A stretch of 22,734 nucleotides of DNA from a virus: IMG/VR virus record IMGVR_UViG_3300028676_000245, positions 1 to 22,734 of that record; one strand, given 5' to 3'. The notes below the pieces were generated by a model. It did no database searches and was not told the origin of the DNA. It saw only the letters and a list, made by a program, of their open reading frames with translations. The translations under genes and the position numbers were made by a program. This document shows, one piece after another, positions 2,769-20,545 of this stretch. Every line of letters begins with the position of its first letter. Position 1 is the stretch's first letter.

Positions 2769-3950
2769 TCAAACCCCCTTCACGACATCAGCGGTGATCT
2801 TTGGCACGCCCAGCTGAGTCGCGAGATTCATCGCCGCAATCACCAGGTTGCCGATGGCCAGCGGGTACAGCAGGGAAACGGTCTCGTCGCGAACACCGCG
2901 CCGGCTCGGCTGGGACAACCGCGCAGCAATGGCCTGAATGCCGCTTGCATCAATGACATCACCGAGTTCTTTTCCCGCACGGTCAAATCGGAACTTCAAG
3001 AATTCTTCCAGGCGACCGCCTTCGATTGGCGTCAGGGTGACCCGCTCGCAACGCTGCACCACTTCCCGCACATCGGCGTTACGCTCACTGAGTTTCACCC
3101 CCAGCTCGGGCTGGCCGATCATGATGATGCTGACCAGCTTGGTGAAACCAACCTCCAGCTCCAGGATGCGCTTTAGGTGCTTGAGCGTCGGGATCGGCAG
3201 GCTGTGTGCTTCTTCAATTACCAGGCAGTGGCGATAGCCCGCCGCGTGGGACTCCTTCAGCGCCTTGTGCAATTGAGCAAAGCGGGCCTCAGGGCTGCTC
3301 TTCGGTTTCGCGAGTGGCGCGACAGCCGCCATCATCGACTCGGCAATGTGAGTGCTTTTCAGGGATTTACCCTTGGTATCGTTGTCTTCGGACGCCAGGA
3401 CGTAAGGCTCGATGATGATCACCGGGTCATTGTTCTCAGCAATACGGTTCACCAGGTCACGGCGAAGGGTGCTTTTACCGGCACCGGATTCACCCTCGAC
3501 CGCGAGGAACCCGCCGTGGCGCGCAGTCTGATACATGACCTCGCGGACGTAGCGAATATCGGGACTGACCCACATGTCCTGGGCGCACTGCAGCTCATCA
3601 AACGGATCGCGGAACAGACTGAAGGCTTTGCGGGTATTTGGTTGCAAGGTCTGTTTAGGCAGTAACATAGGTTCGTCCTCCCCGGACGGCTCTTTTTTAA
3701 GGGCCGGATCTGCCGTGTTGGCGCACGGCAGATCCACTTCTTCAAAGGCGTTGGCGATATCGGCATCGTTGGCGCCGGATTCGGTCAGGAACACACGAAT
3801 GCGCCCCTGCAGTTCGTCGCAGTCCAGACTGCGCGGCCAGTGGCCGTGGTTCAGCAGCTGAGCCACCGTGGCGCCACTGAGACTCAGCGACTCGGCCAAG
3901 GCCGATTGAGGGCGGCCCACCCCCTGTAAAATTTGCTTTAGCTTCAACAT
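2769..3950 (-). CDS. MuB-like AAA+ ATPase, transposition target-selection protein
   Basis: 393 residues. In Mu, MuB binds target DNA as an ATP-dependent filament, delivers it to the transposase and provides target immunity. The N-terminal part (about residues 10-40, GRPQSALAESLSLSGATVAQLL) is a lambda-repressor-like helix-turn-helix, as in MuB. The ATPase domain has Walker A GESGAGKST (about 153-161), Walker B CLVIEEAH (about 242-249) and a sensor-1-like stretch IIMIGQPEL (about 275-283). ExeA-like ATPases share this fold, but its position directly behind the transposase decides the call. I prefer ATG at 3950, with GGAGG six bases upstream and overlapping the transposase stop; a GTG at 3953 would add one residue. 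Confidence 0.92.
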   Translation of the reverse strand: MLKLKQILQGVGRPQSALAESLSLSGATVAQLLNHGHWPRSLDCDELQGRIRVFLTESGANDADIANAFEEVDLPCANTADPALKKEPSGEDEPMLLPKQTLQPNTRKAFSLFRDPFDELQCAQDMWVSPDIRYVREVMYQTARHGGFLAVEGESGAGKSTLRRDLVNRIAENNDPVIIIEPYVLASEDNDTKGKSLKSTHIAESMMAAVAPLAKPKSSPEARFAQLHKALKESHAAGYRHCLVIEEAHSLPIPTLKHLKRILELEVGFTKLVSIIMIGQPELGVKLSERNADVREVVQRCERVTLTPIEGGRLEEFLKFRFDRAGKELGDVIDASGIQAIAARLSQPSRRGVRDETVSLLYPLAIGNLVIAAMNLATQLGVPKITADVVKGV

Positions 3951-7793: not shown

Positions 7794-8006
7794 TCACGCT
7801 GCCAACGCCATTGAAGGTTTGAGACCGAGCTTCACCGCAATATCATGAGCCTTGCCGTAGTTGGCTTTGGCTTGGCCATTGAGGACGCGATACACCTCGT
7901 TCCGGGTGTAACCGTTTTCGATAGCCCATTGAGTGAACGTTTTGCCGACACGACGGAAGTTTTCTTTCACCTGGTCGGCGGTTAGGGCTTTGGCATGGGT
8001 GGCCAT
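7794..8006 (-). CDS. BcepMu gp16-family DNA-binding protein (Ner-like)
   Basis: 70 residues. GKTFTQWAIENGYTRNEVYRVLNGQAKANYGKAHDIAVKLGLK (residues 21-63) is the signature of the BcepMu gp16 family: a compact helix-turn-helix like that of Ner/Nlp, with recognition helix at TRNEVYRVLNG. In Mu, Ner dampens early and repressor transcription as the lytic cycle starts. Here the gene diverges from the XRE repressor with 85 bases between them, the arrangement expected for a Ner/repressor switch. The start has AGGAG eight bases upstream and lies downstream of a strong leftward promoter (8053-8081). Its likely target is the operator inside that promoter (inference). Confidence 0.88.
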   Translation of the reverse strand: MATHAKALTADQVKENFRRVGKTFTQWAIENGYTRNEVYRVLNGQAKANYGKAHDIAVKLGLKPSMALAA

Positions 8007-8091: not shown

Positions 8092-8508
8092 ATGCTTTTG
8101 AGTATCGGCGAGCGCCTTAGAGAGGAGCGAGAGCGGCTGGGTTACAGCCAATCTGCGATTGGGGCTGTCGGGGGAGTCAGGAAGCTTGCTCAACTGAAGT
8201 ACGAACAGGGCGAAAGGTATCCGGGGGCGGACTACCTTGCTGCGCTCGCAAAGATCGGTGCAGATACGCTTTATATCGTTACTGGAGAGCGATCTGCGGG
8301 GTCACTCACTGCGGCCGAAGTAGAGCTGCTTGAGAAGTTCAGATCCGCACCTTTAGCGGTCAAGGCGGCCGCTCTTGCTGCTGTCACTGCTGGCTCTATC
8401 CCCGTGAAACAAACGTTCCATGGGGCCGTGGGCCAATCGGTTGCTGGCAATGTCACAAACAAAGCAGGTGTGACCTTCAATTTTGGGGATGTGAAATCCA
8501 AGGAGTAA
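8092..8508 (+). CDS. XRE-family phage repressor with C-terminal Gly/Asn motif
   Basis: 138 residues. Residues 4-66 are a lambda-Cro/XRE helix-turn-helix domain (IGERLREERERLGYSQSAIG, then YEQGERYPGADYLAALAKIGADTLYIVTG), a form typical of Pseudomonas prophage repressors. A helix (TAAEVELLEKFRSAPLAVKAAALAAV, 73-98) follows. There is no room for a LexA/S24 peptidase domain and no Ser-Lys pair. Instead the tail (109-131) carries FHGAVGQSVAGN and a Phe/Gly-rich end, also found at the N-termini of the proteins at 8512 and 9530. The start is uncertain: ATG at 8092 has a weak ribosome site and TTG at 8098 would give MSIGERL, a common beginning. It heads a four-gene operon. Confidence 0.87.
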   Translation: MLLSIGERLREERERLGYSQSAIGAVGGVRKLAQLKYEQGERYPGADYLAALAKIGADTLYIVTGERSAGSLTAAEVELLEKFRSAPLAVKAAALAAVTAGSIPVKQTFHGAVGQSVAGNVTNKAGVTFNFGDVKSKE

Positions 8509-8511
8509 CCC

Positions 8512-9102
8512 ATGAGCCAGGACTTTCATGGTGATGTGGGCCAAGCGGCGGCTGGCGATATCAACAATTACGGCATCAATATCAATCTCGCCGACAAAAC
8601 CGAGACACGAGGTTTGGTATCAGCTCAGCGAAAGGAGCTGCATCAGTTGCGCGCAAAGTGTGAGGAACTAGGTGATGACCCGCGCGATGTTTGGCGTCGG
8701 GTTCATGCTCAGCTTGGGGTCACTACGATTAGCGAAATCACCGCCGAGCAGTTCGTAAATGCACGAGGCGTGTTGCAAGCAAGGTTGGAGTATCTGCAAG
8801 AAGAGGCTGATAAACGCAGGTTGGTCGGCAAGGTATTGCGGGTCGTCGCTGAAAAAGATGCCAAAGCTGAGATGAACAATTTTTGCGAGTTAACTTTCGG
8901 CCGTACTCAGCTAAACAACCTTCAAAAAACACAGCTACAAATGACACTAGAGTTCGTCCAGGGCTTCGTGCCAGGTCGACAGGAAACACCATTGATTCCC
9001 GAGGTTAGCAAGCTGGCCATCAAGGAGTTTTTGATGCTGCATCAGAAGAACGCAGCAGCCCTGTTTTTCGCCGGTATTTGTATTGGCGGCATTTTGTTTT
9101 AA
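8512..9102 (+). CDS. tail-anchored protein with N-terminal repressor-like motif
   Basis: 196 residues, no named family recognised. Residues 5-25 (FHGDVGQAAAGDINNYGININ) repeat the motif at the repressor C-terminus. Residues about 38-100 (AQRKELHQLRAKCEELGDDPRDVWRRVHAQLGVTTISEITAEQF) resemble the ORF6C-type helical domain common in phage regulators: helix, D-P-R-x-V-W, G-V, I-x-x-I-x-x-x-x-F. The last 17 residues (AAALFFAGICIGGILF) form one short hydrophobic segment at the very end, as in tail-anchored membrane proteins. The ribosome site AAGGAG overlaps the repressor stop and the gap is three bases, so it is translated with the repressor and probably expressed in lysogens. Function unknown. 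Confidence 0.8.
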   Translation: MSQDFHGDVGQAAAGDINNYGININLADKTETRGLVSAQRKELHQLRAKCEELGDDPRDVWRRVHAQLGVTTISEITAEQFVNARGVLQARLEYLQEEADKRRLVGKVLRVVAEKDAKAEMNNFCELTFGRTQLNNLQKTQLQMTLEFVQGFVPGRQETPLIPEVSKLAIKEFLMLHQKNAAALFFAGICIGGILF

Positions 9103-9529: not shown

Positions 9530-9913
9530 ATGGACTTCAATGGCAATGTAGGGCAAGTGGCTGGCGGCGACATTTATAACTATGGCGTGGGTGACCTGAC
9601 CTACCATAGCCGCGAGCAAGTAGCTGAGCTACTTATCCATCTGCGCAAACGGCTAAAAGATGCTCGCAGAAAAACCCTATTCAATCCCCTCGTGGGGTGG
9701 ATGGTCTTAGGTGCGTTGACGTTTCTAATAGAGCTATTTTCCGACATTGTCCTTGGCTACCCACTCCTGATCGCAGCGACTATCTTGTTTGGGATGATAG
9801 TGCCGTACTTTCTGTTCTTACGAGTTGAGCGTAGGTACGGCCCGATGATTTACGCGTATCGAGAAAGCATCACTACTGTGGAGATCTTCCAGCACAGCCG
9901 GGGCTGGGTTTAG
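9530..9913 (+). CDS. two-helix membrane protein with N-terminal repressor-like motif
   Basis: 127 residues, family not recognised. Residues 3-19 (FNGNVGQVAGGDIYNYG) are a third copy of the motif found in the repressor and in the 8512 protein. A basic amphipathic stretch follows (SREQVAELLIHLRKRLKDARRK), then two predicted membrane helices (about 55-77, GWMVLGALTFLIELFSDIVLGY, and about 79-97, LLIAATILFGMIVPYFLFL). The loop between them is very short, so both termini should face the same side, probably the cytoplasm. It is the last gene of the repressor operon, five bases after the lipoprotein stop, and ends 34 bases before the late-promoter repeat. Confidence 0.78.
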   Translation: MDFNGNVGQVAGGDIYNYGVGDLTYHSREQVAELLIHLRKRLKDARRKTLFNPLVGWMVLGALTFLIELFSDIVLGYPLLIAATILFGMIVPYFLFLRVERRYGPMIYAYRESITTVEIFQHSRGWV

Positions 9914-9947: not shown

Positions 9948-9972
9948 CTCTTTAAACTCGATTAAAAGCCCT
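9948..9972 (+). promoter_or_regulatory. late-promoter box, copy 1 (25-bp repeat with TTTAA-N6-TTAAA)
   Basis: This 25-base sequence recurs exactly at 19449-19473. Its core, TTTAA-N6-TTAAA at 9951-9966, has perfectly symmetric arms with the same six-base spacing as the Mu C-protein consensus TTAT-N6-ATAA. It lies about 80 bases before the first lysis gene, the position of Mu promoter Plys. The Mor/C homologue at 1-363 is the likely binder. The -10 box is not clear; CATCAT at 9989-9994 is at a suitable distance. Confidence 0.75.
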
Positions 9973-9980
9973 CCTGTATC

Positions 9981-10002
9981 ACGCCGCCCATCATGGCGGC
10001 GT
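9981..10002 (+). terminator. GC-rich hairpin ahead of the lysis operon
   Basis: ACGCCGCC-CATCAT-GGCGGCGT is a perfect eight-base-pair stem with a six-base loop. The downstream sequence (GTGTATTTCT) is only moderately T-rich, so it is a weak candidate intrinsic terminator. It could stop repressor-operon transcripts before the lysis genes, or act in the 5' leader of the late mRNA. The terminator label is tentative. Confidence 0.45.
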
Positions 10003-10051
10003 GTGTATTTCTGGCGTCCGAAAGTGGCGGCGCCATTACAGGAGGCGTCCC

Positions 10052-10546
10052 ATGCGACCCGAAACCCCTCGCGGCATCCGCAACTTCAATCCCGGCAACA
10101 TCCGTCACGCCAAGGGCGTGCGCTGGCAAGGCATGGCCGTTGCCCAGTCAGATACCAACTTCGTCCAGTTCAATGGCCCGCGCTGGGGCATTCGGGCTAT
10201 TGCCCGCGTGCTCATTACCTACCAGGACAAGCGCCTAGCCGCTGATGGCAGCCGGATTGACAGCGTGCGCGAGATCGTTGAGCGCTGGGCCCCAGCCTCG
10301 GAAAACGACACCAAGGCCTACACCCTGCAAGTCGCCCGCGCCATGGGGCTCGACCCGGACTTTGAAGGCGTCGACTTGTATCAATACGACGCTATGCGCG
10401 CCCTGGTGCTGGCAATCATTCGTCATGAAAACGGCTCGGGTCCACTGCCAGGCGGTCAGTGGTACGGCGAATCAGTGATCGCGGATGGGCTGGCCCTGGC
10501 TGGCATCGAGCGCGGGGTACAGCACGGTGCGGGAGTCCCCGCATGA
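10052..10546 (+). CDS. phage muralytic / structural P5-like protein (endolysin candidate)
   Basis: 164 residues. RGIRNFNPGNIRH (residues 8-20) and the pattern W-x-G...Q-x-D-x-x-F-x-x-F...GIRA.AR.L..Y, followed by IVERWAPASENDTKAY, mark a family found in Mu-like and other Pseudomonas phages, annotated as structural protein P5 or peptidoglycan-degrading protein. It has no signal peptide, so release would depend on the holin. The start at 10052 has AGGAGG nine bases upstream; the frame is open to 10001 but without a site. It is the first gene of late operon I and overlaps the holin start by four bases. That context supports the endolysin role; catalytic residues are not proven. Confidence 0.83.
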   Translation: MRPETPRGIRNFNPGNIRHAKGVRWQGMAVAQSDTNFVQFNGPRWGIRAIARVLITYQDKRLAADGSRIDSVREIVERWAPASENDTKAYTLQVARAMGLDPDFEGVDLYQYDAMRALVLAIIRHENGSGPLPGGQWYGESVIADGLALAGIERGVQHGAGVPA

Positions 10547-10761
10547 AACTGATCTGCGATTGGCGATGCTGCTACAAACTCTACAGCGTCCAACTCGGCG
10601 TGCTGATCGCCTTGTTTGGCTTCGCTCAACTTGAGCTGCTGCCGTTGTGGCAGGCGCAGCTTTCACCCAAGGCTTATGCCGCGTTCAACAGCGGTTTGGG
10701 CCTGCTGCTGTTCGTCGCTCGCCTGATCAAACAAGGCCCTGATCAGGAGGTTCAGCCATGA
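10543..10761 (+). CDS. putative holin
   Basis: 72 residues with two predicted membrane helices: about 13-36 (LYSVQLGVLIALFGFAQLELLPLW) and about 44-62 (AYAAFNSGLGLLLFVARLI), a short linker and a charged C-terminus. Size and topology fit class II holins, which make lesions in the inner membrane and set lysis timing. The first membrane helix contains FAQLELLPLW, seen in holins of Pseudomonas Mu-like prophages. The ATG overlaps the endolysin stop (ATGA), and the spanin pair follows one gene later, making a complete lysis cassette. Confidence 0.85.
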   Translation: MKLICDWRCCYKLYSVQLGVLIALFGFAQLELLPLWQAQLSPKAYAAFNSGLGLLLFVARLIKQGPDQEVQP

Positions 10762-10970
10762 GACTGAATCTGTTTGGTCGAACCTTCACGGCGCTGATAG
10801 CGGGCTTGTTCGGAACCTGGCGCTGGACCATTCCCAGTACAGCCGCTGGCACCTGGATCAGATCCAGCGTCATGCCTCCAAGCTCCCATGGCAAGACCGG
10901 CATCACAGCGGCCAAGCGCCGCGCACGTAAATCACGCAATCGCTTGAGGCATCGTCATGGGCGCGCTTGA
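10758..10970 (+). CDS. small basic hypothetical protein in the lysis cassette
   Basis: 70 residues. The N-terminal half has a hydrophobic stretch (LFGRTFTALIAGLFGTW, residues 5-21) that could be a membrane segment or uncleaved signal. The C-terminal third is very basic (AAKRRARKSRNRLRHRHGR). It begins in an ATGA overlap with the holin stop, seven bases after a strong AGGAGG-like site, and overlaps the next gene by 14 bases. Those junctions are the main reason to accept it. Similar short 'phage exported protein' genes occupy this slot in related prophages. No function can be given; an accessory role in lysis is possible from position. Confidence 0.68.
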   Translation: MRLNLFGRTFTALIAGLFGTWRWTIPSTAAGTWIRSSVMPPSSHGKTGITAAKRRARKSRNRLRHRHGRA

Positions 10971-11571
10971 ACAGCTTGTCTCGCCGTTACCGGCCCGCCT
11001 GGCGACGGCGTTCTTGGCTTGCACCCTCAGTGCAGCGGCAGCGGGCTCAGTGGCCTATGGCTTTGGGTTTCGTTATGCCCAGTCGTTGGGTGCCACCGAC
11101 CTGGCAAACCTCAAGGGAACGCATGCAGAGCAGGCGCTCGCCGCCGAGACCGCCAACCGTGTGCATCTGCTGCAGCAAGTCACCCGTGCCACCGAAGCCG
11201 AGGCTCTGCTGTTCGCCACGTTCAACCGTTTCACAGAAGAAAAACGCCAGCTCCAGGAGCGCATCTCCCATGTCACGACCCAATACATTGCCACGCCTGG
11301 CACTGTCGCTAAGCCTATCCCTCGTTGTGTGTTCACTGCTGGCTGGTTGCGCGACTACAACGCAGCCCTTGGTGTGCCCACCCCAAGACCAGGCACCGCT
11401 GCCACCACTTCTGAAAAAGCGGCCTGGCCCGCCACCGGCACTGACGCCGAGCTACTGGAAAGCGGCGTCACTGCGGCCGACATCCTTGCCCACGCCCAAG
11501 ACTACGGTGTGTGGGCCCGCTCCAACCTCGCCCAACTCAACGGCCTGCTCGATCTCCAGGAAAAGGACTGA
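10957..11571 (+). CDS. i-spanin, Rz-like inner-membrane lysis protein
   Basis: 204 residues. A single N-terminal membrane helix (about residues 14-41, ARLATAFLACTLSAAAAGSVAYGFGF) is followed by a periplasmic alpha-helical, coiled-coil-prone region (about 50-105, HAEQALAAETANRVHLLQQV through RFTEEKRQLQERI). This is the layout of i-spanins, which with an outer-membrane lipoprotein fuse the two membranes at the end of lysis. The o-spanin gene starts inside it in another frame (11270), as in many phages, which strongly supports the call. The C-terminal part is longer than in lambda Rz. The start has TTGAGG upstream and overlaps the previous gene. Confidence 0.85.
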   Translation: MGALEQLVSPLPARLATAFLACTLSAAAAGSVAYGFGFRYAQSLGATDLANLKGTHAEQALAAETANRVHLLQQVTRATEAEALLFATFNRFTEEKRQLQERISHVTTQYIATPGTVAKPIPRCVFTAGWLRDYNAALGVPTPRPGTAATTSEKAAWPATGTDAELLESGVTAADILAHAQDYGVWARSNLAQLNGLLDLQEKD

Positions 11572-11587
11572 TGCCCTATGGATGTAG
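11270..11587 (+). CDS. o-spanin, Rz1-like lipoprotein embedded in the i-spanin gene
   Basis: 105 residues in the +1 frame relative to the i-spanin. It starts with a lipoprotein signal (SRPNTLPRLALSLSLSLVVC) ending in lipobox LLAGC, cysteine at residue 27, so the mature protein has about 79 residues. As usual for Rz1, the mature part is proline-rich (CPPQDQAPLPPLL and KKRPGPPP). AGGAG lies ten bases before the ATG at 11270. The frame runs 16 bases beyond the i-spanin stop into the zinc-finger gene, longer than most Rz1 proteins. An earlier in-frame start would remove the signal-peptide layout and is rejected. Confidence 0.85.
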   Translation: MSRPNTLPRLALSLSLSLVVCSLLAGCATTTQPLVCPPQDQAPLPPLLKKRPGPPPALTPSYWKAASLRPTSLPTPKTTVCGPAPTSPNSTACSISRKRTDALWM

Positions 11588-11799
11588 CTGAATACGCTAC
11601 AGAGGAAGACGACACCGACGAGGCGGTACTGCGCGCCCGCACCAGTGGGTTGCAACGTCGCTCAGGTCGCTCGGGTTACCGCTGCGAAGAATGCGGTGAT
11701 GCCATTCCTGAAGATCGCCGCCAGACCGAGCCTGGTACCGAACATTGTTTTGATTGCATAGACGCCTTGGAACACTTGGCCACGCGGAGTTTTGAATGA
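11578..11799 (+). CDS. TraR/DksA-type C4 zinc-finger protein
   Basis: 73 residues. YRCEECGDAIPEDRR (about residues 34-48) and HCFDCIDALE (about 56-65) supply the C-x-x-C...C-x-x-C zinc site of the TraR/DksA family, whose members bind the RNA polymerase secondary channel. The N-terminus is acidic (YATEEDDTDEAVLRAR), compatible with the short coiled-coil tip of TraR-size proteins. Small members are common in Mu-like and P2-like late operons. The start at 11578 lies six bases after the i-spanin stop with a rather distant AAAGGA; an ATG at 11571 runs into an early stop. The 3' end overlaps the DUF2730 start by four bases. Confidence 0.88.
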   Translation: MDVAEYATEEDDTDEAVLRARTSGLQRRSGRSGYRCEECGDAIPEDRRQTEPGTEHCFDCIDALEHLATRSFE

Positions 11800-12101
11800 A
11801 CTTGAACGAAGTGAACTTCGGTTTCCAAACCGTGCAGTGGCTGATTTTGACAGTGCTCGGTATCTACACATGGTTGACCAAGCGCCAGGCAGCCAGCGGT
11901 CAAGAACTGCTGGAACTGCGTACCCGCATTGTCGCCCTGGAGGAGCACGTCCGGCACCTTCCAGACCAGACCGCTGTCACCGACCTGTTGGGTGATATGA
12001 AAGCTGTACGGGCCGAGCTGTCCGGGGTCAAGGAAGCGCTTGGCCCTTTAGCCCGTTCGCTGGACCGGATCAATGACTACTTGCTGCGAGAAAAGACATG
12101 A
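11796..12101 (+). CDS. DUF2730 family protein
   Basis: 101 residues, the usual size of DUF2730, a family of Mu-like phages. There is one N-terminal membrane helix (about residues 9-28, GFQTVQWLILTVLGIYTWLT), then a helical, coiled-coil-like soluble region (ELLELRTRIVALEEHVRHLP and VRAELSGVKEALGPLARSLDRINDYLL). Mu gp25 occupies the same slot, between the lysis genes and the terminase. The function is unknown. It is joined to both neighbours by ATGA overlaps, so translation is likely coupled through this section. Confidence 0.88.
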   Translation: MNLNEVNFGFQTVQWLILTVLGIYTWLTKRQAASGQELLELRTRIVALEEHVRHLPDQTAVTDLLGDMKAVRAELSGVKEALGPLARSLDRINDYLLREKT

Positions 12102-12391
12102 CCCAATACGCCGACTTTCTGCGCCAGGACATCCGCCTAGTGATCCTTCGCCTGTTGGCCGAGATGACCGGTTATCGCGCCAACAGCTCAGTGTTGACCA
12201 TGGCCCTGGACAGCTACGGGCATACCCTTAGCCGTGACCAAGTGAAAACCGAATTGAACTGGCTGGCCGAACAAGGCGCATTGACCGTTGCCGATGTTGG
12301 CCCTGTGCTGGTAGCCACGCTCAATGAGCGCGGGCAGGACATTGCTGCAGGACGCGCTCGTGTTCCCGGTATCAAACGGCCGGGGGCGTAA
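12098..12391 (+). CDS. VpaChn25_0724-like phage protein (winged-helix-like)
   Basis: 97 residues. DIRLVILRLLAEMTGYRANSSVLTMAL (about 11-37), then LSRDQVKTELNWLAEQGALTVADVG (about 44-68) and VLVATLNERGQDIAAGRARVPGIKRP, is the pattern of the phage family often named VpaChn25_0724, sometimes predicted as an ArsR-like winged helix. It is found immediately before the small terminase in Mu-like phages (the Mu gp26 slot). The first helices and the 'LAEQGAL' turn resemble a winged helix, but DNA binding is not shown. A role in packaging or as a late regulator is inference from position. Confidence 0.85.
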   Translation: MTQYADFLRQDIRLVILRLLAEMTGYRANSSVLTMALDSYGHTLSRDQVKTELNWLAEQGALTVADVGPVLVATLNERGQDIAAGRARVPGIKRPGA

Positions 12392-12393
12392 CC

Positions 12394-12945
12394 ATGGCAG
12401 GCAAGTCCTCCATCAATCGCCTGCCTTCGATGGTCAAGGCCTACATCCAGAAGCTATTGCGCGAAGACCGCATGACCCTAGACGACATGCTGGCCGATAT
12501 TCAGGCGCGCTTCCCCAATGAGAAAGCCCCCAGCCGTAGTGCACTGGGCCGCTTCAAGCTCGGCTTTGACGAACTGACCGACAAGGTCCGCCAACAGCGC
12601 GAAATGGCCGAGGCGTTCGTGGGCGCGTTCGGCGAAGACGCCTCGGACAAAACCGGCGTGTTGTTGGTGGAGGCCATCTCGACGCTGACCTACCAGGCTG
12701 CCATGGGCGCCCATGAAAAGGATGAAGTGACCATCGCCGAAGTCTCGGCCCTGGCCCGCGCCGCCAAGGCCACCATGGAAGCGCGGACGATGAGCGTGAA
12801 GGAACGTCAGGTCATCGAAAAAGCGGCCCGCGACCGTTTGCTCCAGGAGCAAGCCGCCGAACTGGACAGCGCGGTGAAAGCCAAAGGCATGACCGAAGAC
12901 CAGGCCATGTTCTGGCGCCAGAAGTTCCTGGGTGTGAAACGATGA
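12394..12945 (+). CDS. DUF3486 protein, probable small terminase subunit (Mu gp27-like)
   Basis: 183 residues. It starts with SSINRLPSMVKAYIQKLLREDRMTLDDMLADIQ (residues 5-37), the DUF3486 signature, followed by a putative helix-turn-helix (PSRSALGRFKLGFDELTDKV) and a long helical region. The family lies immediately before the large terminase in Mu-like phages and is regarded as the DNA-recognition (small) subunit. The start is two bases after the previous stop behind a GGGGG site; the end overlaps the large terminase by four bases. The small-subunit role follows from family position, not from a motif visible here. Confidence 0.88.
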   Translation: MAGKSSINRLPSMVKAYIQKLLREDRMTLDDMLADIQARFPNEKAPSRSALGRFKLGFDELTDKVRQQREMAEAFVGAFGEDASDKTGVLLVEAISTLTYQAAMGAHEKDEVTIAEVSALARAAKATMEARTMSVKERQVIEKAARDRLLQEQAAELDSAVKAKGMTEDQAMFWRQKFLGVKR

Positions 12946-14549
12946 AACCCTCGTCCAGCACGCTGCGCGTCATCGAATGGGACGAACTGCCGCCGAGCGT
13001 CCGGGAAATCCCCGAGGGCTATAACCCGCTCGATGACGGGATTCTGATGGCTCACCAGTCGGAATGGCTGGGCATCGACGCGCAGATCAAACTCTGTGAA
13101 AAAGGCCGCCGTACCGGCATCACCTTTGCCGAAGCGCTGGACTCGGTCATCACCGCTGCCTCGCAAAAAGTCGCGGGCGGCATGGACTGTTTTTACATTG
13201 GCGACACCAAGGAAAAAGGCCTGGAGTTCATTGGCTATTGTGCCAAGTTCAGCCGGGTAATGGCTGAGGCTCAGGCATCGGGGGTCAGCGAGATCGAGGA
13301 GTTCCTGTTCGATGACCAGGACGAAGCCGGCAACACCCGCCAGATCAATGCCTACCGCATTCGTTACGCCTCCGGTTTCAAGATCGTTGCACTGTCGAGC
13401 AACCCAGCCGGCGTGCGTGGCTTGCAGGGCAAGGTCATCATCGATGAAGCCGCATTTCACCGTGACGTGTCGGCCGTCCTCGATGCCGCCACGGCGTTAC
13501 TGATCTGGGGCGGTCGTATCGTCATCATCAGTACCCACAACGGCAAGGGCAATGCGTTCAACCAGATGGTCAACGACATCCGGGACAAACGTTACGGGGA
13601 CAGCGCCGAAGTCTACCGGGCTACCTTTGATGACGCTGTGGCCAACGGCTTGTTTGAGCGGGTTTGCTTCATGGCCGGCAAAGTCGCTACGGCCGAAGAG
13701 AAGGAAGCCTGGTACAAAAAGATTCGCAACGCCTACGGCCCGCGCAAGGCACAGATGCGCGAAGAGCTTGATGCAATCCCACGTGACGGCAACGGCGTGT
13801 GCATTCCCGGCGTGTGGATCGATGAGGCCATGCGCCCCGGTCGGGTTGTACTGCGACTGGCGTTGGACGATGACTTCACCCTGCAGCCGGTGTATCGCCG
13901 TGAAGCCTATGTTGATGACTGGATCGGGCGCTATCTGACGCCCTTGATGCAGCAGGCTTTGGCGCCTGATCTACGTCACTTCTTGGGCATGGACTATGCC
14001 CGGCACCGGGACTTTTCCATCATCTGCCCGATGTCTGTCGATCAGGTTAGGCATCGTGATGTGCCCTTTGTGGTGGAGATGCACAAGGTTCCAACACGGC
14101 AACAGAAACAAGTCCTGTTTTACATCCTGCGCGGGCTACCGCGTTTTGTCGGCGCCGCGCTGGACGCGACCGGCAGCGGCGAAACACTGGCCGAAGAGAC
14201 AGCCGATGAGTTCGGCCATAACCGAATCCAGCAGGTGAAGATCAGTCGCTCCTGGTACGGCGCCTGGATGCCGAAATTCGTGCAGTTGTTCGAAGACGCC
14301 ACCATCACATTGCCGCTCGATGACTCGTTGCACCAAGACGTGCGCGCCATCGAAATGGTGGACGGCATCCCCATGATCATGAAAGCCCGCTCACAAGACC
14401 ACAAAGACCCGGACCTCTACCGCCACGGCGACTTCGCCGGGGCCGGCGCGTTGGCCAACTTCGCCACTCTGGAAGTCGCCTCAGGTCCCATCTCCGTCAA
14501 ATCACGCCGCCCACGCCAGGGCAAACGCATCACCCAGGGGTACGCATGA
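12942..14549 (+). CDS. large terminase subunit (Mu gp28-like)
   Basis: 535 residues. It is the motor and nuclease that packages DNA into proheads. The ATPase half shows a Walker A-like segment (EKGRRTGITFAEA, about 53-65), Walker B KVIIDEAAFH (about 164-173) and a coupling motif IISTHNG (about 195-201). The nuclease half begins near residue 345 with FLGMDYARHRDFSII, an RNase-H-like first strand with its Asp, and continues with ALDATGSGETLAEE. In Mu this enzyme packages headful DNA with host flanks after replicative transposition. It overlaps the small subunit by four bases and the portal by four. Length and motifs are intact. Confidence 0.94.
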   Translation: MKPSSSTLRVIEWDELPPSVREIPEGYNPLDDGILMAHQSEWLGIDAQIKLCEKGRRTGITFAEALDSVITAASQKVAGGMDCFYIGDTKEKGLEFIGYCAKFSRVMAEAQASGVSEIEEFLFDDQDEAGNTRQINAYRIRYASGFKIVALSSNPAGVRGLQGKVIIDEAAFHRDVSAVLDAATALLIWGGRIVIISTHNGKGNAFNQMVNDIRDKRYGDSAEVYRATFDDAVANGLFERVCFMAGKVATAEEKEAWYKKIRNAYGPRKAQMREELDAIPRDGNGVCIPGVWIDEAMRPGRVVLRLALDDDFTLQPVYRREAYVDDWIGRYLTPLMQQALAPDLRHFLGMDYARHRDFSIICPMSVDQVRHRDVPFVVEMHKVPTRQQKQVLFYILRGLPRFVGAALDATGSGETLAEETADEFGHNRIQQVKISRSWYGAWMPKFVQLFEDATITLPLDDSLHQDVRAIEMVDGIPMIMKARSQDHKDPDLYRHGDFAGAGALANFATLEVASGPISVKSRRPRQGKRITQGYA

Positions 14550-16042
14550 ACAAGAGAGGCCTGTGGGTCAGCCCCACCGAATTCGTCAGCTTTGCGGACG
14601 CCAAGCGAAGCTCCAACCTTGACCAACACATTGCCACCCGTGGACGGTCCAATGCGGGCGGCTCCAGCGGGGCAAACCTGCCAAACCCGGACCCGATCCT
14701 GAAAGCCCAGGGCAAGGACATAACCGTGTACCGCGACCTGCGCAGCTCGGCATTGGTTGGCGGCAACGTTCGTCGCCGCAAAGCTTCGGTGCTGGCGTTG
14801 GAGCGCGGTATCAAACGCGGCGATGCGCCAATCAAGGTGGAACGTTTTATTCGCGATTGGCTGTCGGATCTTGATCTGGACCGCATCATTCGCGAGCTGC
14901 TCGACGCGCCCCTGTTCGGCTATCAGCCTGTCGAGCTGATGTGGCAGCCGGTGGGCATGAACCTGGTGCCGGGAGACTTGCTCGGCAAGCCCGCCGAATG
15001 GTTCTTCTACGACAAGGACAACGCGCTGCGTTTTCGCTCCAAGGAGGCTGGACAAGACGGCGAGGTGTGCGATCCGCAGCGTTTTATCGTCGCCCGGCAG
15101 GACGCGACCTATGCCAACCCGTATGGCTTCCCGGACCTCAGCATGTGCTTTTGGCCGGCGACCTTCATGAAAGGCGGCCTGAAGTTCTGGGTGCAGTTCA
15201 CTGAGAAGTACGGCAGCCCATGGGTCATTGGCAAGCACCCACGCGGCGCCACTGATGGTGAAACTGATTTGCTGCTCGATAGCCTTGAGGCCATGGTGCA
15301 GGACGCCGTTGCAGCCATCCCGGACGACTCCAGCGTGCAGATCATTGAGGCCGCCGGTAAGGCGGGCAGCGCCGACGTCTACCGTGAGCTGCTGGAGTAC
15401 TGCCGCAGTGAAATCAACGTCGCCATGCTCGGGCAAAACCAGACCACTGAGAAGGACAGCAACCGCGCCAGTGCGACAGCGGGTGCCGAAGTCACCAAAG
15501 ACATTCGCGACGGTGATGCGGGTATTGTTGCGGCGTCATTGAACGCCTGTATTCGCCTGGTCGTAGACCTCAACTTCGGCACCGACGTTGTGGCGCCGCT
15601 GTATGAACTGTGGGAACAGGAGGAAATCGACAAGACATTGGCCCAACGCGACAAGTCGTTGACCGAGTCCGGGGTGAAGTTCACCAGCGCGTACTGGAAA
15701 CGCACTTACAACCTGCAGGACGGCGATATCAATGAGGCGGCGGCCACCGCCGAGTCGCCAGAGTTTGCCGAGCCGACCGTGCGGCCTCTGCTGGATCAGA
15801 TCGCCCTCGATCAGGCCATCGACAGCTTGCCCGCCGAAGCGTTGCAACAACAGGCCGAACAGGCCGTGGCCCCCTTCATCGAGATGCTGCAACGCGCCCG
15901 CAACGACTCCGAGGCTCTCGGTCTACTGGCCGAGGCACTGCCGCAGATGGACGGCGAGGCGCTCCAGCAGCGACTCGCCGATTTGTTGTTCATTGCCGAC
16001 ACTTGGGGCCGTTTGAGCGCCAATGCTGACCGGGAGGATTGA
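14546..16042 (+). CDS. DUF935 portal protein (Mu gp29-like)
   Basis: 498 residues, normal for DUF935 portals, which form the dodecameric DNA gate of Mu-like heads. Diagnostic segments are TVYRDLRSSALVGGNVRRRKASVLALE (about 60-86), DAPLFGYQPVELMWQPVG (about 121-138), EWFFYDKDNALRF and FTEKYGSPWVIGKHPRGA (about 218-235). EKDSNRASATAGAEV (about 305-319) is the usual conserved loop. The C-terminus is helical and acidic. It starts in an ATGA overlap with the terminase and ends one base before the gpF-like gene. Confidence 0.93.
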   Translation: MNKRGLWVSPTEFVSFADAKRSSNLDQHIATRGRSNAGGSSGANLPNPDPILKAQGKDITVYRDLRSSALVGGNVRRRKASVLALERGIKRGDAPIKVERFIRDWLSDLDLDRIIRELLDAPLFGYQPVELMWQPVGMNLVPGDLLGKPAEWFFYDKDNALRFRSKEAGQDGEVCDPQRFIVARQDATYANPYGFPDLSMCFWPATFMKGGLKFWVQFTEKYGSPWVIGKHPRGATDGETDLLLDSLEAMVQDAVAAIPDDSSVQIIEAAGKAGSADVYRELLEYCRSEINVAMLGQNQTTEKDSNRASATAGAEVTKDIRDGDAGIVAASLNACIRLVVDLNFGTDVVAPLYELWEQEEIDKTLAQRDKSLTESGVKFTSAYWKRTYNLQDGDINEAAATAESPEFAEPTVRPLLDQIALDQAIDSLPAEALQQQAEQAVAPFIEMLQRARNDSEALGLLAEALPQMDGEALQQRLADLLFIADTWGRLSANADRED

Positions 16043-16043
16043 C

Positions 16044-16874
16044 ATGGCCGTCACAGAGAAACACCTCAGCCCAACCGACCTCAAAGCCGTCTTTGGCCTT
16101 GAACCCGCCAAGGCCATCGCATACCTCAAGTTCAAGGGATACGCGATCACCTGGGATTGGCAGGAGATGCTCGACCAAGCCCACGATCAATCCTTCACCG
16201 TCGCCAAGGCGATGCGACTCGATTTGTTATCAGATATTCGGAGCGCATTGGAAACAGCGCTCCAGGAAGGACAAACCCTCAAGCAGTTCACCGAGGGCAT
16301 GCAACCGACTTTGGAGGCGCAGGGCTGGTGGGGGCAACAAGTCATCGTCGATAGCGACGGCGTCGGCGAGCTGGTCCAGTTAGGCAGCCCACGCCGGCTC
16401 AAAACGATCTATCAGACCAACCTGCAAAGCGCCTACATGGCCGGCCGTAAAGCCAACATGGAGGAAACCACAGACACCCATCCGTACTGGATGTACGTTG
16501 CGATCCTGGACGGCAAGACGCGCCCAAGCCATCGGGCGTTGCACGGTCAAGTGTTCCGCCACGATGATCCAATCTGGTCAGCGATCTTTCCCCCAAATGG
16601 GTTTAACTGCCGCTGCCGCGTGGTGGCCTTGAGCGAAGCCGCCGTCAAACGTCGCGGGTTGAAGGTCGTATCGAGCGACGGGCGAATGTTCACCGAAACC
16701 GTAGAAACCGGAATCAACAAACGTACCGGTGAAATCAGAACAGCCACGGTCACCGGTCTGCGCACCAGCGATGCAGGAGGCCGGGCCGTAACCTTCCGCA
16801 CCGATCCGGGTTTCAATCATGCACCAGGCACCGGACTGGCCGAGGTGTTGAAGCGTAAAGAGGCAGCCGCTTAG
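16044..16874 (+). CDS. phage minor head protein (Mu gpF-like)
   Basis: 276 residues. The F/SPP1-gp7-type domain is at about 125-195: IYQTNLQSAYMAGRK, then the signature DGKTRPSHRALHGQVF and DDPIWSAIFPPNGFNCRCRV. In Mu, gpF is a head component needed for morphogenesis; relatives bind the portal. The N-terminal region (about 1-60) includes AIAYLKFKGYAITWDWQEML, typical of the Mu/BcepMu branch. I chose the ATG at 16044, one base after the portal stop and behind GGGAGGATTG; seven upstream codons are open but inside the portal gene. The next gene is ten bases away. Confidence 0.92.
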   Translation: MAVTEKHLSPTDLKAVFGLEPAKAIAYLKFKGYAITWDWQEMLDQAHDQSFTVAKAMRLDLLSDIRSALETALQEGQTLKQFTEGMQPTLEAQGWWGQQVIVDSDGVGELVQLGSPRRLKTIYQTNLQSAYMAGRKANMEETTDTHPYWMYVAILDGKTRPSHRALHGQVFRHDDPIWSAIFPPNGFNCRCRVVALSEAAVKRRGLKVVSSDGRMFTETVETGINKRTGEIRTATVTGLRTSDAGGRAVTFRTDPGFNHAPGTGLAEVLKRKEAAA

Positions 16875-16884
16875 GAGGCGCAAA

Positions 16885-17361
16885 ATGTTCACAGTTGAAT
16901 TAGATCACCAGCGATTGCAGAACGCCCTGCGAAAAGTTGAGTGGGCCGTCGGGGATCTTGCACCGCTGATGCGTGGCGTTGCCGCCGAGCTGGTAAGCCA
17001 AACAGAAGAGAACTTTGAAAACGAGGGGCGGCCCGACTGGGCCGACCTGTCCGATACGACTACCGAGCGCCGGGCAAAAAACGGCAACTGGCCGGGCCAG
17101 ATTTTACAGGTCAGTGCGGCGGGTCTAGGGGCCTCGGTCACCAGCCTTGCAACCGACAGCTCAGCGTTAGTCGGCAGCAACAAACCCTATGCGGCGATGA
17201 TGCACTTCGGTGGAAAAAAATCCGAGTTCCCGCATCTGTGGGGTGATATTCCAAGTCGGCCATGGTTGCCGATGGACGCCGAGGGAGTCCTCCAGCCCGA
17301 GGCAGAGGAAGCCTTGCTTGAACTGGCGCTTTCGCATCTCAGACAAACCACTAACCTTTAG
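16885..17361 (+). CDS. phage virion morphogenesis protein (Mu gpG-like)
   Basis: 158 residues, the normal size. It belongs to the virion morphogenesis / tail completion family (Mu gpG, P2 gpS). Visible signatures are LMRGVAAELVSQTEENFENEGRP (about 28-50), WADLSDTTTERRA, ILQVSAAGLGASVTS (about 74-88) and the loop SSALVGSNKPYAAMMHFGG (about 92-110), followed by the IPSRPWLPMD ending typical of the family. In Mu it acts late in head assembly or tail joining. The ribosome site AGGAGG is strong. It is the last recognised structural gene before the cargo segment at 17362-19448. Confidence 0.9.
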   Translation: MFTVELDHQRLQNALRKVEWAVGDLAPLMRGVAAELVSQTEENFENEGRPDWADLSDTTTERRAKNGNWPGQILQVSAAGLGASVTSLATDSSALVGSNKPYAAMMHFGGKKSEFPHLWGDIPSRPWLPMDAEGVLQPEAEEALLELALSHLRQTTNL

Positions 17362-17510
17362 TTCCACAAGGTAGACGCTAGTCACTCAATCGGGTTGCGG
17401 ATAAATACCCTGAGACAGGCATCATCAGATCCATCAAGGTCAAACTCGACCGGCGCCAAGGATTGGGGTCCTGTACTAAACTTGATGAGTTCTGACCAAG
17501 TGGGGTTTGT

Positions 17511-18356
17511 ATGATTTCAGAGATGATGACGCGGTTGGCTGACTTTCTTCATAGCGTTCCGGATGTAATTTGGTCAGGAGTCATTGCATCAGTGCTAACG
17601 CTGAGTGGGGTGTTGATATCGAATTACGACAATTCCAGGCGTTTGCGGATGCAGCTCGTCCACGATTCCGCCGAGAAATCAAAGGAACGGATAACAAGTA
17701 TTCGTCGTGAGATCTATCTACGCGCAACAGACGAAGCACTCCTGGTTATGAGGTATTTCGTAAGGCTACCGCACGTAGATTTGGCGGAGACCAATCCGTC
17801 GGACGAGCTACAAGGCTTCCAGTCCACTTTATCAAAGCTGAAGCTGGTCACTGGGCCGGCCAATTTATCTCTCGTGACTTCACTGGATACAGAATGCACC
17901 GTCCTCTTTGTGAAGTTATTGCAGAGTGCTCAACCAGTACAGGACCTACGCTCGGAGGTAACCGGGTTGGATGCAGAGATTGATTTCTTTGATGACCAGT
18001 CGACAAAAACATTCGCAGAGAAAGAAAACCTGAACCAACATGCTGGGTCTGACAGCCAGCAACTAGCGGCATTGATGAGGCTTCATGAAAGCCAGTTGGC
18101 AAAAGTGGCTCAGCTTACTCAGTTAAGAAACGCAAAACAGGAGGAGTTAGATGCTCGTATCAAGGCTTACTCCAAGGCAATTTATTCCGAGTTGACTTCA
18201 TTCGGAAGGCTCTTGGAGCAAATATCAATAGTAATGCGCGCTGAGCTTGGGCTCACAACAGATACTCTCGCCTACGCCGTAGAATCGGAACGGCTGCGGA
18301 TTGAAATGGGGGCGTTGGTCGATAGGACTTTAGACTCCATGCATTCGTCCAAATAA
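17511..18356 (+). CDS. membrane-anchored coiled-coil protein, probable moron, unknown function
   Basis: 281 residues, family not recognised. One N-terminal membrane helix (about residues 18-38, VIWSGVIASVLTLSGVLISNY) is followed by a basic stretch (NSRRLRMQ), so the large C-terminal domain is probably cytoplasmic. That domain is helical, with coiled-coil-like parts around 40-62 and about 160-235 (LDAEIDFFDDQS and LHESQLAKVAQLTQLRNAKQEELDARIKAY). A 60-base sample (17521-17580) is about 48% G+C against about 60% in the preceding head gene, suggesting separate acquisition. It is preceded by 149 bases without a gene, has a TGGGG site five bases before the ATG, and no clear promoter. Position suggests cargo such as superinfection exclusion, but nothing shows this directly. 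Confidence 0.78.
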   Translation: MISEMMTRLADFLHSVPDVIWSGVIASVLTLSGVLISNYDNSRRLRMQLVHDSAEKSKERITSIRREIYLRATDEALLVMRYFVRLPHVDLAETNPSDELQGFQSTLSKLKLVTGPANLSLVTSLDTECTVLFVKLLQSAQPVQDLRSEVTGLDAEIDFFDDQSTKTFAEKENLNQHAGSDSQQLAALMRLHESQLAKVAQLTQLRNAKQEELDARIKAYSKAIYSELTSFGRLLEQISIVMRAELGLTTDTLAYAVESERLRIEMGALVDRTLDSMHSSK

Positions 18357-18622
18357 CCTGGCAGCTATCGCACGCACGCACAGCTGACGTAGACACCACA
18401 AATAACGGTGGTCAACGTGTCGGATCGCGGCGAGCAAACAGTCCGGCGGAAAACTGGTCCTGAATTACTGGAACAAGCCGAACGCGTATAACGCCCTCAA
18501 GAGCGCCACGCGCCACTCGCGGCTCCGGTTCTCCTCCCTACTACAGAAAAGCCGTCGTAAAGGCTTTATAAAGACGTATTGGGCCTCTCTTGGCGCGAGG
18601 CCGCGCGTAAAAGGAGATTGCG
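18357..18622. other. 266-base intergenic segment in the cargo region
   Basis: No convincing gene is seen. Two inverted repeats are present: AAAGCC-N8-GGCTTT at 18548-18567, followed by ATAAAG, and GGCCTC-N9-GAGGCC at 18582-18602. The first may be a weak terminator or leader hairpin; the second precedes the AAAAGGAG ribosome site of the gene at 18623. A plus-strand frame stays open across about 18420-18620, but it has no good start and very few acidic residues, so I do not call it. Confidence 0.4.
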
Positions 18623-19435
18623 ATGAGCCAGATGAACAAAATGGAGCAAGAGGTGGTTTATCTAACCGCCGTGGTGGACCTGATTGGATCAATGGTCAAC
18701 AAGGCCATGTTCAGTGTCGTCGGAGATGGCGGGCATAAAAACGTGTGGTTCGAATCATCCACACACCGGCAACTTTTCTCAATTTTTCTGGTGGATTTTC
18801 TATCGCCAACTGATGCAAAGGCACCTGTTCCGTCAAAACCGTACTTGGCCGCACTGAATTCTGTTGCGGAAAAACCAAGCTTCGACGTTGGCGGATCTGT
18901 CCAGTACCTCAGCGAAGCGGTTGCCAGTTTCAAGGACTGGTTAAACGTGGAGATATCCGTCGATGCTTGGTTGCCATCCATTGACCGTCAGGTGGTGCTC
19001 CGGATCCCTAGATACATATTGCTAAAGAACGAGGGGGACATCTCAAAGCACAACTCACTGCGTTCAGTTGGCGTTGCTGAAGGGTTACAGAAGCTTTTAA
19101 TCAAGGCGGGTGAGCCGACCGAGCTGTACCAGGCAATGTTGGTCCAGCAAGACATTTACGACATTTTTCATGACGATGTTTGCGCTTATCACGCCAGCAC
19201 TATTGCCGAGTTTTTAAATGGTTTGTGGTGGGGAATACAGAACTATCTACAGCCTGAGTACAACCGCAGTTTTACGCCACCTGAAGGTGGCTTCCTGATT
19301 TACGGTTTCAAGCCCCCTCCAGAGTTGAAGCATCCCTACGCCAAAGCCTGCTACAGGACGCTTATGAATCAGATTCATAAAGGACCGATATTCAAACCCT
19401 TTACCGTGACGTGTCACCTCAAAGGCAAGTATTAG
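18623..19435 (+). CDS. hypothetical soluble protein, probable moron
   Basis: 270 residues, no family recognised. The start is well supported by AAAAGGAG six bases upstream; a second ATG at 18632 is possible. There is no signal peptide or clear membrane span. Aromatic-rich segments stand out: HRQLFSIFLVDFLSP (about 48-62), FKDWLNVEISVDAWLPSIDRQVVLRIPRYILLKNEGDISKHN (about 103-144) and FLNGLWWGIQNYLQPEYNRSF (about 199-219). It lies between the gpG-like gene and the protease promoter box, where Mu has no gene, and it ends 13 bases before that box. A phage-borne defence or host-interaction role would fit the location, but no motif supports a specific activity. Confidence 0.78.
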   Translation: MSQMNKMEQEVVYLTAVVDLIGSMVNKAMFSVVGDGGHKNVWFESSTHRQLFSIFLVDFLSPTDAKAPVPSKPYLAALNSVAEKPSFDVGGSVQYLSEAVASFKDWLNVEISVDAWLPSIDRQVVLRIPRYILLKNEGDISKHNSLRSVGVAEGLQKLLIKAGEPTELYQAMLVQQDIYDIFHDDVCAYHASTIAEFLNGLWWGIQNYLQPEYNRSFTPPEGGFLIYGFKPPPELKHPYAKACYRTLMNQIHKGPIFKPFTVTCHLKGKY

Positions 19436-19448
19436 CCCTTCTGCGGCA

Positions 19449-19473
19449 CTCTTTAAACTCGATTAAAAGCCCT
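19449..19473 (+). promoter_or_regulatory. late-promoter box, copy 2 (25-bp repeat with TTTAA-N6-TTAAA)
   Basis: Exact copy of 9948-9972; the dyad TTTAA-N6-TTAAA is at 19452-19467. It lies 52 bases before the protease ATG, matching the place of Mu late promoter PI. It would let the protease-scaffold-capsid operon be activated independently of the lysis/terminase operon and across the inserted cargo genes. No convincing -10 hexamer is visible. Confidence 0.75.
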
Positions 19474-19493
19474 AGGCCACTCACTGGCCCAGG
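19471..19493 (+). other. hairpin directly after late-promoter box 2
   Basis: CCTAGGCCA-CTCAC-TGGCCCAGG folds into a nine-base-pair stem with one A-C mismatch and a five-base loop. It begins at the edge of the 25-bp repeat, much as the hairpin at 9981 follows copy 1, although the stem sequences differ. It may be part of the promoter or the 5' leader. Confidence 0.4.
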
Positions 19494-19525
19494 CTGTGCG
19501 CATTACCTCGACGCAGCGCACAGCC

Positions 19526-20545
19526 ATGAAATCACTGCACATCTTCAAATCCGGCAGCCACACCGCAATGAATGGCGTCAGCTTCGACTTTAGCGAGTCC
19601 GATCTGGCCGCCACGGTGGACGCATACGACCCGGCCCTGCACGAAGCCCCGATGGTCATCGGCCACCCGAAGCATGACGCCCCGGCCGCCGGCTGGGTTA
19701 AGTCGCTGACGGCTACCGCACAAGGCCTGATCGCCGAACCGCAACAGGTCAACCCCGCTTTCGCCGAACAAGTAGCCAAGGGCAGCTACAAGAAAATTTC
19801 CGCCTCCTTCTACCACCCAGACGCAGTCAACAACCCCGTGCCCGGCGTGTACTACCTGCGCCATGTCGGTTTTCTCGGCGCCCAGCCGCCGGCCGTGAAA
19901 GGACTTCGCCCCATTGAACTGGCCGACGGCGAAGAAGGCGTTGTCGAGTTCGGCGACTACGGCCACGAACTCAACTCCGACATGTGGCGCCGTTTCCGCG
20001 AATGGCTTATTGGCAAGTTTGATAAAGACACCGCCGACCAGGTGGCCCCGTCCTGGGCTATCGACAGCCTCGCCGAAATCGCCCGACAACCCGTGCCAGG
20101 TGATCAACCCGCTTTCTCTGACCCCACCCGATCCACTGAGGTAACCAGTATGTCCGTCCAAGACAACGCCGCCCTGGAGGCGGAGAACAAGCGCCTGAAG
20201 GCTGACATCGCCAAGCGCGACAAGGCCGCCCGCACCGCTGTACAGGACGCTATCCATGCCGCGAACACTGAGTTCGCCGAGAAACTGGTGGCGGCGGGCA
20301 TGAAGCCGGTGCACGCACCCGCAGTGATTGCCGCGCTGGACTACGCCGACTCCAGCGAAACGCTGTTGGAGTTCGGTGAAGAGGACGCCCGCGAGCCGTT
20401 GAGCGATGGCCTGAAGGCGATCTTCAGCGACCTGGCCGGCGGTGTCAGTTTCGCGGAAGTCGCCACCAAGGACCGCGCCGGCAAAACCGTCACCCAAACC
20501 ACCAACCCGCTGATGGCCGATGCCGAAGCCCGCATTCAACGATAG
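19526..20545 (+). CDS. Mu gpI-like head maturation protease (with scaffold domain)
   Basis: 339 residues. The N-terminal half (MKSLHIFKSGSHTAMNGVSFDFSESDL, then EAPMVIGHPKHDAPAAGWVKSL, about 41-62) is characteristic of Mu-like protease I; KGSYKKISASFYHPDA (about 88-103) contains a candidate catalytic Ser region. The C-terminal part is the scaffold, also made separately from an internal start at 20150. The protease trims scaffold and capsid protein during prohead maturation. I chose ATG at 19526 because family members begin MKSLHIF; its ribosome site is poor, and a GTG at 19496 in the same frame is an alternative. It is the first gene of late operon II. Confidence 0.9.
   Translation: MKSLHIFKSGSHTAMNGVSFDFSESDLAATVDAYDPALHEAPMVIGHPKHDAPAAGWVKSLTATAQGLIAEPQQVNPAFAEQVAKGSYKKISASFYHPDAVNNPVPGVYYLRHVGFLGAQPPAVKGLRPIELADGEEGVVEFGDYGHELNSDMWRRFREWLIGKFDKDTADQVAPSWAIDSLAEIARQPVPGDQPAFSDPTRSTEVTSMSVQDNAALEAENKRLKADIAKRDKAARTAVQDAIHAANTEFAEKLVAAGMKPVHAPAVIAALDYADSSETLLEFGEEDAREPLSDGLKAIFSDLAGGVSFAEVATKDRAGKTVTQTTNPLMADAEARIQR
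20150..20545 (+). CDS. internal in-frame scaffold protein (Mu gpZ-like)
   Basis: 131 residues, identical to the C-terminal part of the protease (from its residue 209). TGAGG lies eight bases before ATG 20150, a much better ribosome site than that of the full-length protein, so the shorter product should be made in excess. Its N-terminus is a coiled coil (NAALEAENKRLKADIAKRDKAA), as expected for scaffolds. In Mu, gene Z lies inside gene I in the same frame and encodes the scaffold; lambda C/Nu3 is a parallel. Both proteins should be degraded on maturation. The internal start is inferred from sequence. Confidence 0.8.
   Translation: MSVQDNAALEAENKRLKADIAKRDKAARTAVQDAIHAANTEFAEKLVAAGMKPVHAPAVIAALDYADSSETLLEFGEEDAREPLSDGLKAIFSDLAGGVSFAEVATKDRAGKTVTQTTNPLMADAEARIQR

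Follow-up and report, generated by a model that had tools for sequence, protein, structure and literature searches.

The stretch of DNA analyzed here, all 22,734 nucleotides (nt) of the IMG/VR virus record IMGVR_UViG_3300028676_000245 (the window), belongs to a Mu-like transposable phage. It contains an exact repeat of 25 bases, CTCTTTAAACTCGATTAAAAGCCCT, of which one copy precedes the lysis/terminase operon and the other the protease/capsid operon (Table 1). The two copies, described as some 9.5 kb apart in an earlier note on this DNA, are identical, lie 9501 bases apart on the forward strand and are the only ones. The early operon runs leftward and ends in the gene for a transcription activator of the Mor family. 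Tail promoters are not visible because the window ends before the tail genes.

Each copy contains a dyad, TTTAA-ACTCGA-TTAAA, in which perfect half-sites of 5 base pairs (bp) flank a 6-nt spacer, and the earlier observation of a perfect dyad with six-base spacing thus holds for both. A -10-like hexamer, nAnnnT, is positioned exactly 22 nt downstream of the dyad at both sites. The distance from the start of the dyad to the likely start codon is 101 nt for the endolysin gene and 74 nt for the protease gene; for the latter, the ATG at 19526 is preferred to an upstream GTG at 19496 that sits right behind the -10 hexamer. A -35 element is not evident, as AAGCCC (positions 16-21, 17-bp spacing) agrees with TTGACA at two of six positions by eye. 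There is no third copy of the 25-mer or of the dyad pattern in the whole window. The central 19-mer, allowed up to three mismatches, has two sites and no third match there, and it had no matches in 100 dinucleotide shuffles.

Table 1. Genes and proposed promoter elements of the window
Feature	Positions	Strand	Remarks
Mor-family transcription activator, 120 residues	1..363	-	last gene of the leftward early operon; Pfam PF08765, E 1.5e-32; PHROG 532
Transposase	3950-5725	-	
Small helix-turn-helix proteins	7794-8006 and 8092-8508		
25-mer, copy 1	9948..9972	+	
16-bp dyad	9951..9966	+	proposed Mor site of the lysis/terminase promoter (about -50 to -35)
Perfect 9-bp inverted repeat	9980..10003	+	CACGCCGCC/GGCGGCGTG, with the -10 as loop
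-10-like hexamer CATCAT	9989..9994	+	22 nt past the dyad
Predicted transcription start	10001	+	placed by means of the -10 and of genes that are leaderless in relatives
Endolysin	10052..10546	+	first gene of the lysis/terminase operon; AGGAGG at 10040-10045
Terminase large subunit	12942..14549	+	lysis/terminase operon
25-mer, copy 2	19449..19473	+	
16-bp dyad	19452..19467	+	proposed Mor site of the protease/capsid promoter
-10-like hexamer CAGGCT	19490..19495	+	22 nt past the dyad
Predicted transcription start	19502	+	inferred
Head maturation protease	19526..20545	+	

The Mor protein scores 112.2 bits against PF08765 (cut-off 24.9), and PHROG 532 is the family of the late transcriptional activator. 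It is the single Mor match in the window, as expected from the earlier note, which had counted one Mor/C protein. An AlphaFold2 model (mean predicted local distance difference test score 71.6) shows two paired helices, 80-86 and 91-110, at the place expected for the recognition helix. As two papers describe it, the Mor site of Mu consists of two 5-bp inverted repeats within 16 bp, has a 6-nt spacer, spans -51 to -36 and is centered at -43.5 (PMC4390567, PMC4287176). The window resembles the Mu Pm/Mor system in that a 16-bp element appears to replace the -35, with a -10 downstream (PMC4390567, PMC4287176), and also in that the Mor-family gene belongs to the early operon. With +1 placed at position 51, the dyad beginning at position 1, the 5-6-5 dyad would span -50 to -35 and its center would be at about -42.5 rather than -43.5. 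Unlike those of the Mu Mor site, the half-site letters vary among lineages. It is highly likely that the repeats are the parts of two late promoters to which the Mor activator binds and that the same Mor switches on all late operons, whereas Mu Mor drives the middle promoter only. The 25-mer is very probably a docking site for Mor at a fixed distance from each late promoter.

The element recurs in related phages. A scan of viral contigs for an exact 17-mer yielded at least 119 stretches, many of them on the same contigs. Thirty-six whole virus records, reached through matches to the motif, Mor or the protease, were scanned for TTTAA-N6-TTAAA: 29 contain four copies, four contain three, one contains two and two contain one. 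The three records with one or two copies (G025, G014 and G029) have no Mor match. G025 and G014, both reached through the motif, probably match by chance in AT-rich contigs, although the 20-mer is complete in G014. In ten four-copy relatives with mapped gene starts, all four dyads precede the lysis, protease, tail and baseplate genes. In the annotated phage Komp_PAO1_1 the four copies stand before the endolysin, the protease region, a tail gene and a baseplate wedge gene, respectively. The further copy that had been anticipated ahead of the tail genes is thus present in relatives, accompanied by one before a baseplate gene. This distribution also bears on the idea that the phage repressor or a Ner-like protein uses the repeat as its operator. 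Dyad symmetry and the two small helix-turn-helix proteins of the window would suit an operator, but the early control region between their genes has no copy of the dyad and late promoters account for all four copies in the ten mapped complete relatives, making this reading extremely improbable.

Over 148 distinct copies the core is TCTTTAAAC[T/C]CGATTAAAAG, and the second base of the hexamer 22 nt past the dyad is A in 99%, its last base T in 98%. Because the copies share a common ancestry, the weight of the comparison lies in the hexamer distance shared by four unrelated downstream sequences. Copies within one phage are often identical, as they would be if the repeat were a chance occurrence or the functionless descendant of a duplicated segment. 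The DNA around the copies of one phage is unrelated, however, downstream sequences without kinship have the -10 at one and the same spacing, and the geometry is kept with other letters in different lineages; chance or mere descent is scarcely credible as an explanation.

In host DNA the element is confined to one genus. A degenerate 22-mer matched 41 stretches in 84,980 species genomes (257 Gb), all in records titled Pseudomonas. In the 18 Pseudomonas genomes from which these stretches come, a somewhat relaxed 20-mer occurs 57 times, and its copies are mostly clustered on a single contig. A Mor-family match is present in 14 of the 18 genomes. Copies share a contig with a Mor gene in 13 of the 14; in the exception, G049, the gene and the copies are on separate contigs. 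The remaining four genomes, which lack a Mor match, have one copy each, and no other genome has so few. A random distribution in host DNA, which the earlier note had named as a result that would refute its reading, is not what this pattern shows.

The spacing was examined across late promoters in 42 phage records, in which the starts of the lysis, protease, tail and baseplate genes were mapped by tblastn. Regions from 220 bases upstream to 60 bases into each gene were searched for any 5-6-5 dyad followed by nAnnnT. Two or more such regions were available in 40 records, MuM16-2 and G070 having fewer. At a spacing of 22 nt, dyads with the same half-site occur in at least two regions in 37 of the 40 records, in at least three in 27 and in four in 23. 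The other 24 spacings from 10 to 34 reach at most 7, 4 and 1 records, respectively. Apart from the window, nine of these records had been reached by way of the motif. The pattern holds in 27 of the remaining 30 and fails in Mu, phiSHP3 and Vibrio phage 1.028. In the protease promoter of the JBD25 type, dyad and -10 are 23 nt apart.

In the proposed mechanism, a dimer of the 120-residue Mor protein would bind the 16-bp dyad, which stands in for a -35 element, and would make the host RNA polymerase start at the weak -10 (C, not T, in first place) 22 nt further on. Since the Mor gene closes the early operon, the late genes would come on after transcription of that operon. The same protein would switch on the lysis, protease/capsid, tail and baseplate operons, four in complete relatives, so that a single step would replace the succession of two proteins, Mor and then C, that operates in Mu. 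Across the phages searched, a single Mor-family match is found in 62 of 64 positive records. The first set gave one match in each of 33 positive records (37 searched) and the second in 29 of 31; the exceptions are Mu, with two, and G065, with two matches within one broken gene. A profile built from 24 Mor proteins matches the solved structures of Mu C and Mor. The Mor/C type of late control was worked out for Mu with two sequential proteins, and the present collection points to a one-protein circuit that transposable phages from several bacterial families have in common, with a form of the site particular to each lineage.

In Mu, the C protein is the activator of four late promoters (PMC4461284). 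The phages described here likewise appear to have four late promoters on one activator, and the lysis and protease promoters occupy the same places as in the Mu set of Plys, PI, PP and Pmom (PMC4461284). The earlier note had matched the two repeats to Plys and PI. That part of the Mu plan stands and four promoters are usual, but the third and fourth precede tail and baseplate genes, not P and mom. Unlike Mu, the window has no second Mor/C gene. The half-sites TTTAA/TTAAA differ from TTAT-N6-ATAA, a consensus for Mu C that was taken from the earlier note and was met in this analysis only in Mu Pmom DNA. By a hand count, with the -10 assigned in this analysis, Mu Pmom has a spacing of 23 nt as compared to 22 here. 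The site is predicted to work like a C site, yet it is not a Mu C site in the strict sense.

The B3-like phages (B3, JBD25 and Fc02) have the same early/late layout and the same geometry as the window. They differ from its closer relatives in having other half-sites and three late promoters found instead of four. In B3 there are three TTTCG-N6-CGAAA sites, each with a -10 at 22 nt. Published strand-specific RNA-seq data on Fc02 show an early leftward operon that ends in mor, followed by three forward gene clusters; the first begins at the holin-endolysin genes and the second is limited by a rho-independent terminator (PMC9936078). The Fc02 sites are at 11703, 20101 and 25608, ahead of the holin, protease and tape measure genes. 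No description of these late promoters was found in the literature searched; the B3 genome paper was outside that search.

The half-site letters differ between lineages. The half-site is TTTAA in the Pseudomonas and Pasteurellaceae types, NTTAA in the enteric types, TTT[A/C/G]G in JBD25, TTTCG in B3, TT[G/T]T[C/G/T] in JBD67 and A[C/G/T]TAA in the Bise types. The predicted recognition helix starts with [S/T][L/V/M] in 23 Mor proteins and with [S/T][E/P] in the other 11. All 23 proteins with L, V or M at helix residue 2 belong to phages whose half-sites are of the NTTAA type (in G055 the second place is C or T), and none of the 11 with E or P goes with TTTAA. The lysis promoters of JBD25 and PM105 provide a direct comparison: the 90 bp upstream are 100% identical and the holin genes 94%, whereas the promoters are 49% and the Mor proteins 25% identical. 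On sequence grounds this pair is a natural swap of activator plus promoter. The earlier suggestion of an altered half-site holds in that the letters differ from those of Mu C, with the refinement that TTTAA is one of several types going with the Mor lineage in this collection.

Several results weigh against the reading of the repeats as Mor sites. The mapped regions of Mu, phiSHP3 and Vibrio phage 1.028 yielded no 22-nt sites, and the JBD67-type sites are poor dyads. A strict whole-genome scan for repeated dyads, independent of annotation, gave 7 clusters at 22 nt against 1 to 6 elsewhere, and at a looser threshold there was no peak at 22 nt; the spacing answer is clean because the search was confined to the regions upstream of mapped late genes. 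JBD25 and JBD67 differ in the protease (20% identity) and portal (24%) besides Mor. The half-site correlates better with portal distance (0.68) than with Mor distance (0.53), and the Mor term given the portal vanishes (0.06, p 0.29). The partial correlation of the half-site with the recognition helix given the rest of Mor is 0.21 (p 0.04), and that with the rest of Mor given the helix is 0.36 (p 0.0006). The Mor proteins of G017 and G026 are only 32% identical, yet the two have the same half-site. Once kinship is weighed, the half-site thus appears to follow Mor only loosely. The control-protein version of the Mantel test was mixed, and its terminase column was given no weight owing to some poor partial alignments. 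The partial Mantel test for the idea that the recognition helix rather than the whole of Mor sets the half-site was only marginal.

The closer tracking of the portal and the coexistence of the two dissimilar Mor proteins with one half-site would be accommodated if the dyad and -10 were a late promoter but a second phage regulator or a host factor bound the dyad. This is improbable, within a comparison that did not cover other shared phage regulators systematically, since the 16-bp 5-6-5 geometry and its position are those of the Mu Mor site. A host factor, moreover, does not explain why phages that infect one species, such as B3 and JBD25 in P. aeruginosa, have different half-site letters. The support for Mor as the late activator that reads the repeat, as the earlier note had proposed, is comparative only. 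As to G017 and G026, their protease, transposase, terminase and portal are 93-97% identical, and their activator gene has probably been exchanged.

Conservation begins sharply at the left edge of the dyad, and the upstream flank of all copies is hypervariable, as if accessory genes were exchanged right up to the activator site. This abrupt edge, together with open reading frames lacking a convincing family upstream of both copies, might suggest that the repeat is a recombination seam for swapping accessory genes between late operons. Such a role leaves the fixed distance to the -10, the dyad, the half-site types and the presence before every late block unexplained, and it is very improbable as the primary function; any seam role may be a side effect.

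If the repeats are Mor sites, one geometry is combined with five or more types of half-site among phages of Pseudomonas, enteric bacteria and Pasteurellaceae, and pairs of the JBD25/PM105 type offer natural swaps for studying the joint change of an activator and its sites. The site would also predict late transcription units, correct gene starts and mark the late promoters of transposable prophages. In Komp_PAO1_1 (L156 5112-7241) the protease region is annotated as one long reverse-strand open reading frame, probably a misannotation; the protease start maps to 5190 on the forward strand.

A complete site, TCTTTAAACTCGATTAAAAGTC, is found in the lambda-like Pseudomonas siphophage G029 (L385 1501-1522), immediately behind tail gene I and ahead of tail gene J; a -10-like CAAAAT follows 23 nt further on. 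No Mor-family match was found in this record. A relative is present in record G075 (L028 3861-3882, reverse strand). Capture of the Mor switch by an unrelated phage is possible. That the Mor site is a portable late-gene switch which has left the Mu-like phages is a speculative and rather unlikely proposition. If it were true, a Mu-like prophage in the same cell would act in trans on an unrelated phage and switch its genes on, and late regulons orthogonal to one another would correspond to the several half-site types.

The placement of +1 at position 51 is supported indirectly because ATG codons cluster there. Among 117 distinct promoters an ATG start is at position 51 in 33 and at position 52 in nine, with at most three at any other position from 45 to 65. 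The promoters with an ATG at 51 or 52 include all 26 baseplate promoters and all 17 Bise-type promoters. Examples in which the start codon coincides with the predicted +1 are Bise (L159 15788) and PhiKM (L181 17272). Late mRNAs of this kind are probably leaderless. Of the 25 Pasteurellaceae-type promoters, 24 have T as the first base of the -10, whereas 88 of the other 92 have C or G there.

The -10 forms the loop of a perfect inverted repeat with arms of at least 5 bp in 28 of the 117 promoters, compared to 3.4 expected from shuffles. The arrangement is present in all 11 Pseudomonas-type lysis promoters and in five of six Pasteurellaceae baseplate promoters. Among 24 distinct 30-mers from lysis promoters, seven pairs hold in 23 or more; at one of the seven, two sequences show a compensatory change. 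Two outer pairs are each disrupted in three sequences. This conservation is not independent evidence because the lysis copies are related. The inverted repeat may hinder translation of read-through RNA or may ease melting, both of which are guesses. A terminator-like hairpin with a stem of 8-11 bp adjoins the activator site in eight of 11 Pseudomonas-type tail promoters and in all three JBD25-type ones, for example in L076 near 7617 (reverse strand) and in JBD25 (L183 27220-27248).

In phiSHP3 (L158) the lysis and protease regions, near 11190 and 19260, both carry CGTGCAAATGACCTG, with a CTCGC-N6-GCGA-like dyad at unequal distances. Between the late operons of the window, the open reading frames at 17511-18356 and 18623-19435 have no convincing Pfam or PHROG family and no DNA relatives in the phage collection, and are likely accessory genes. 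A peptide motif, F-x-G-x-V-G-Q ... G-[DN], is common to three neighboring open reading frames (8400-8508, 8512-8570 and 9530-9590), where it lies at the C-terminal end of the first, the repressor-like protein, and at the N-terminal ends of the two that follow.

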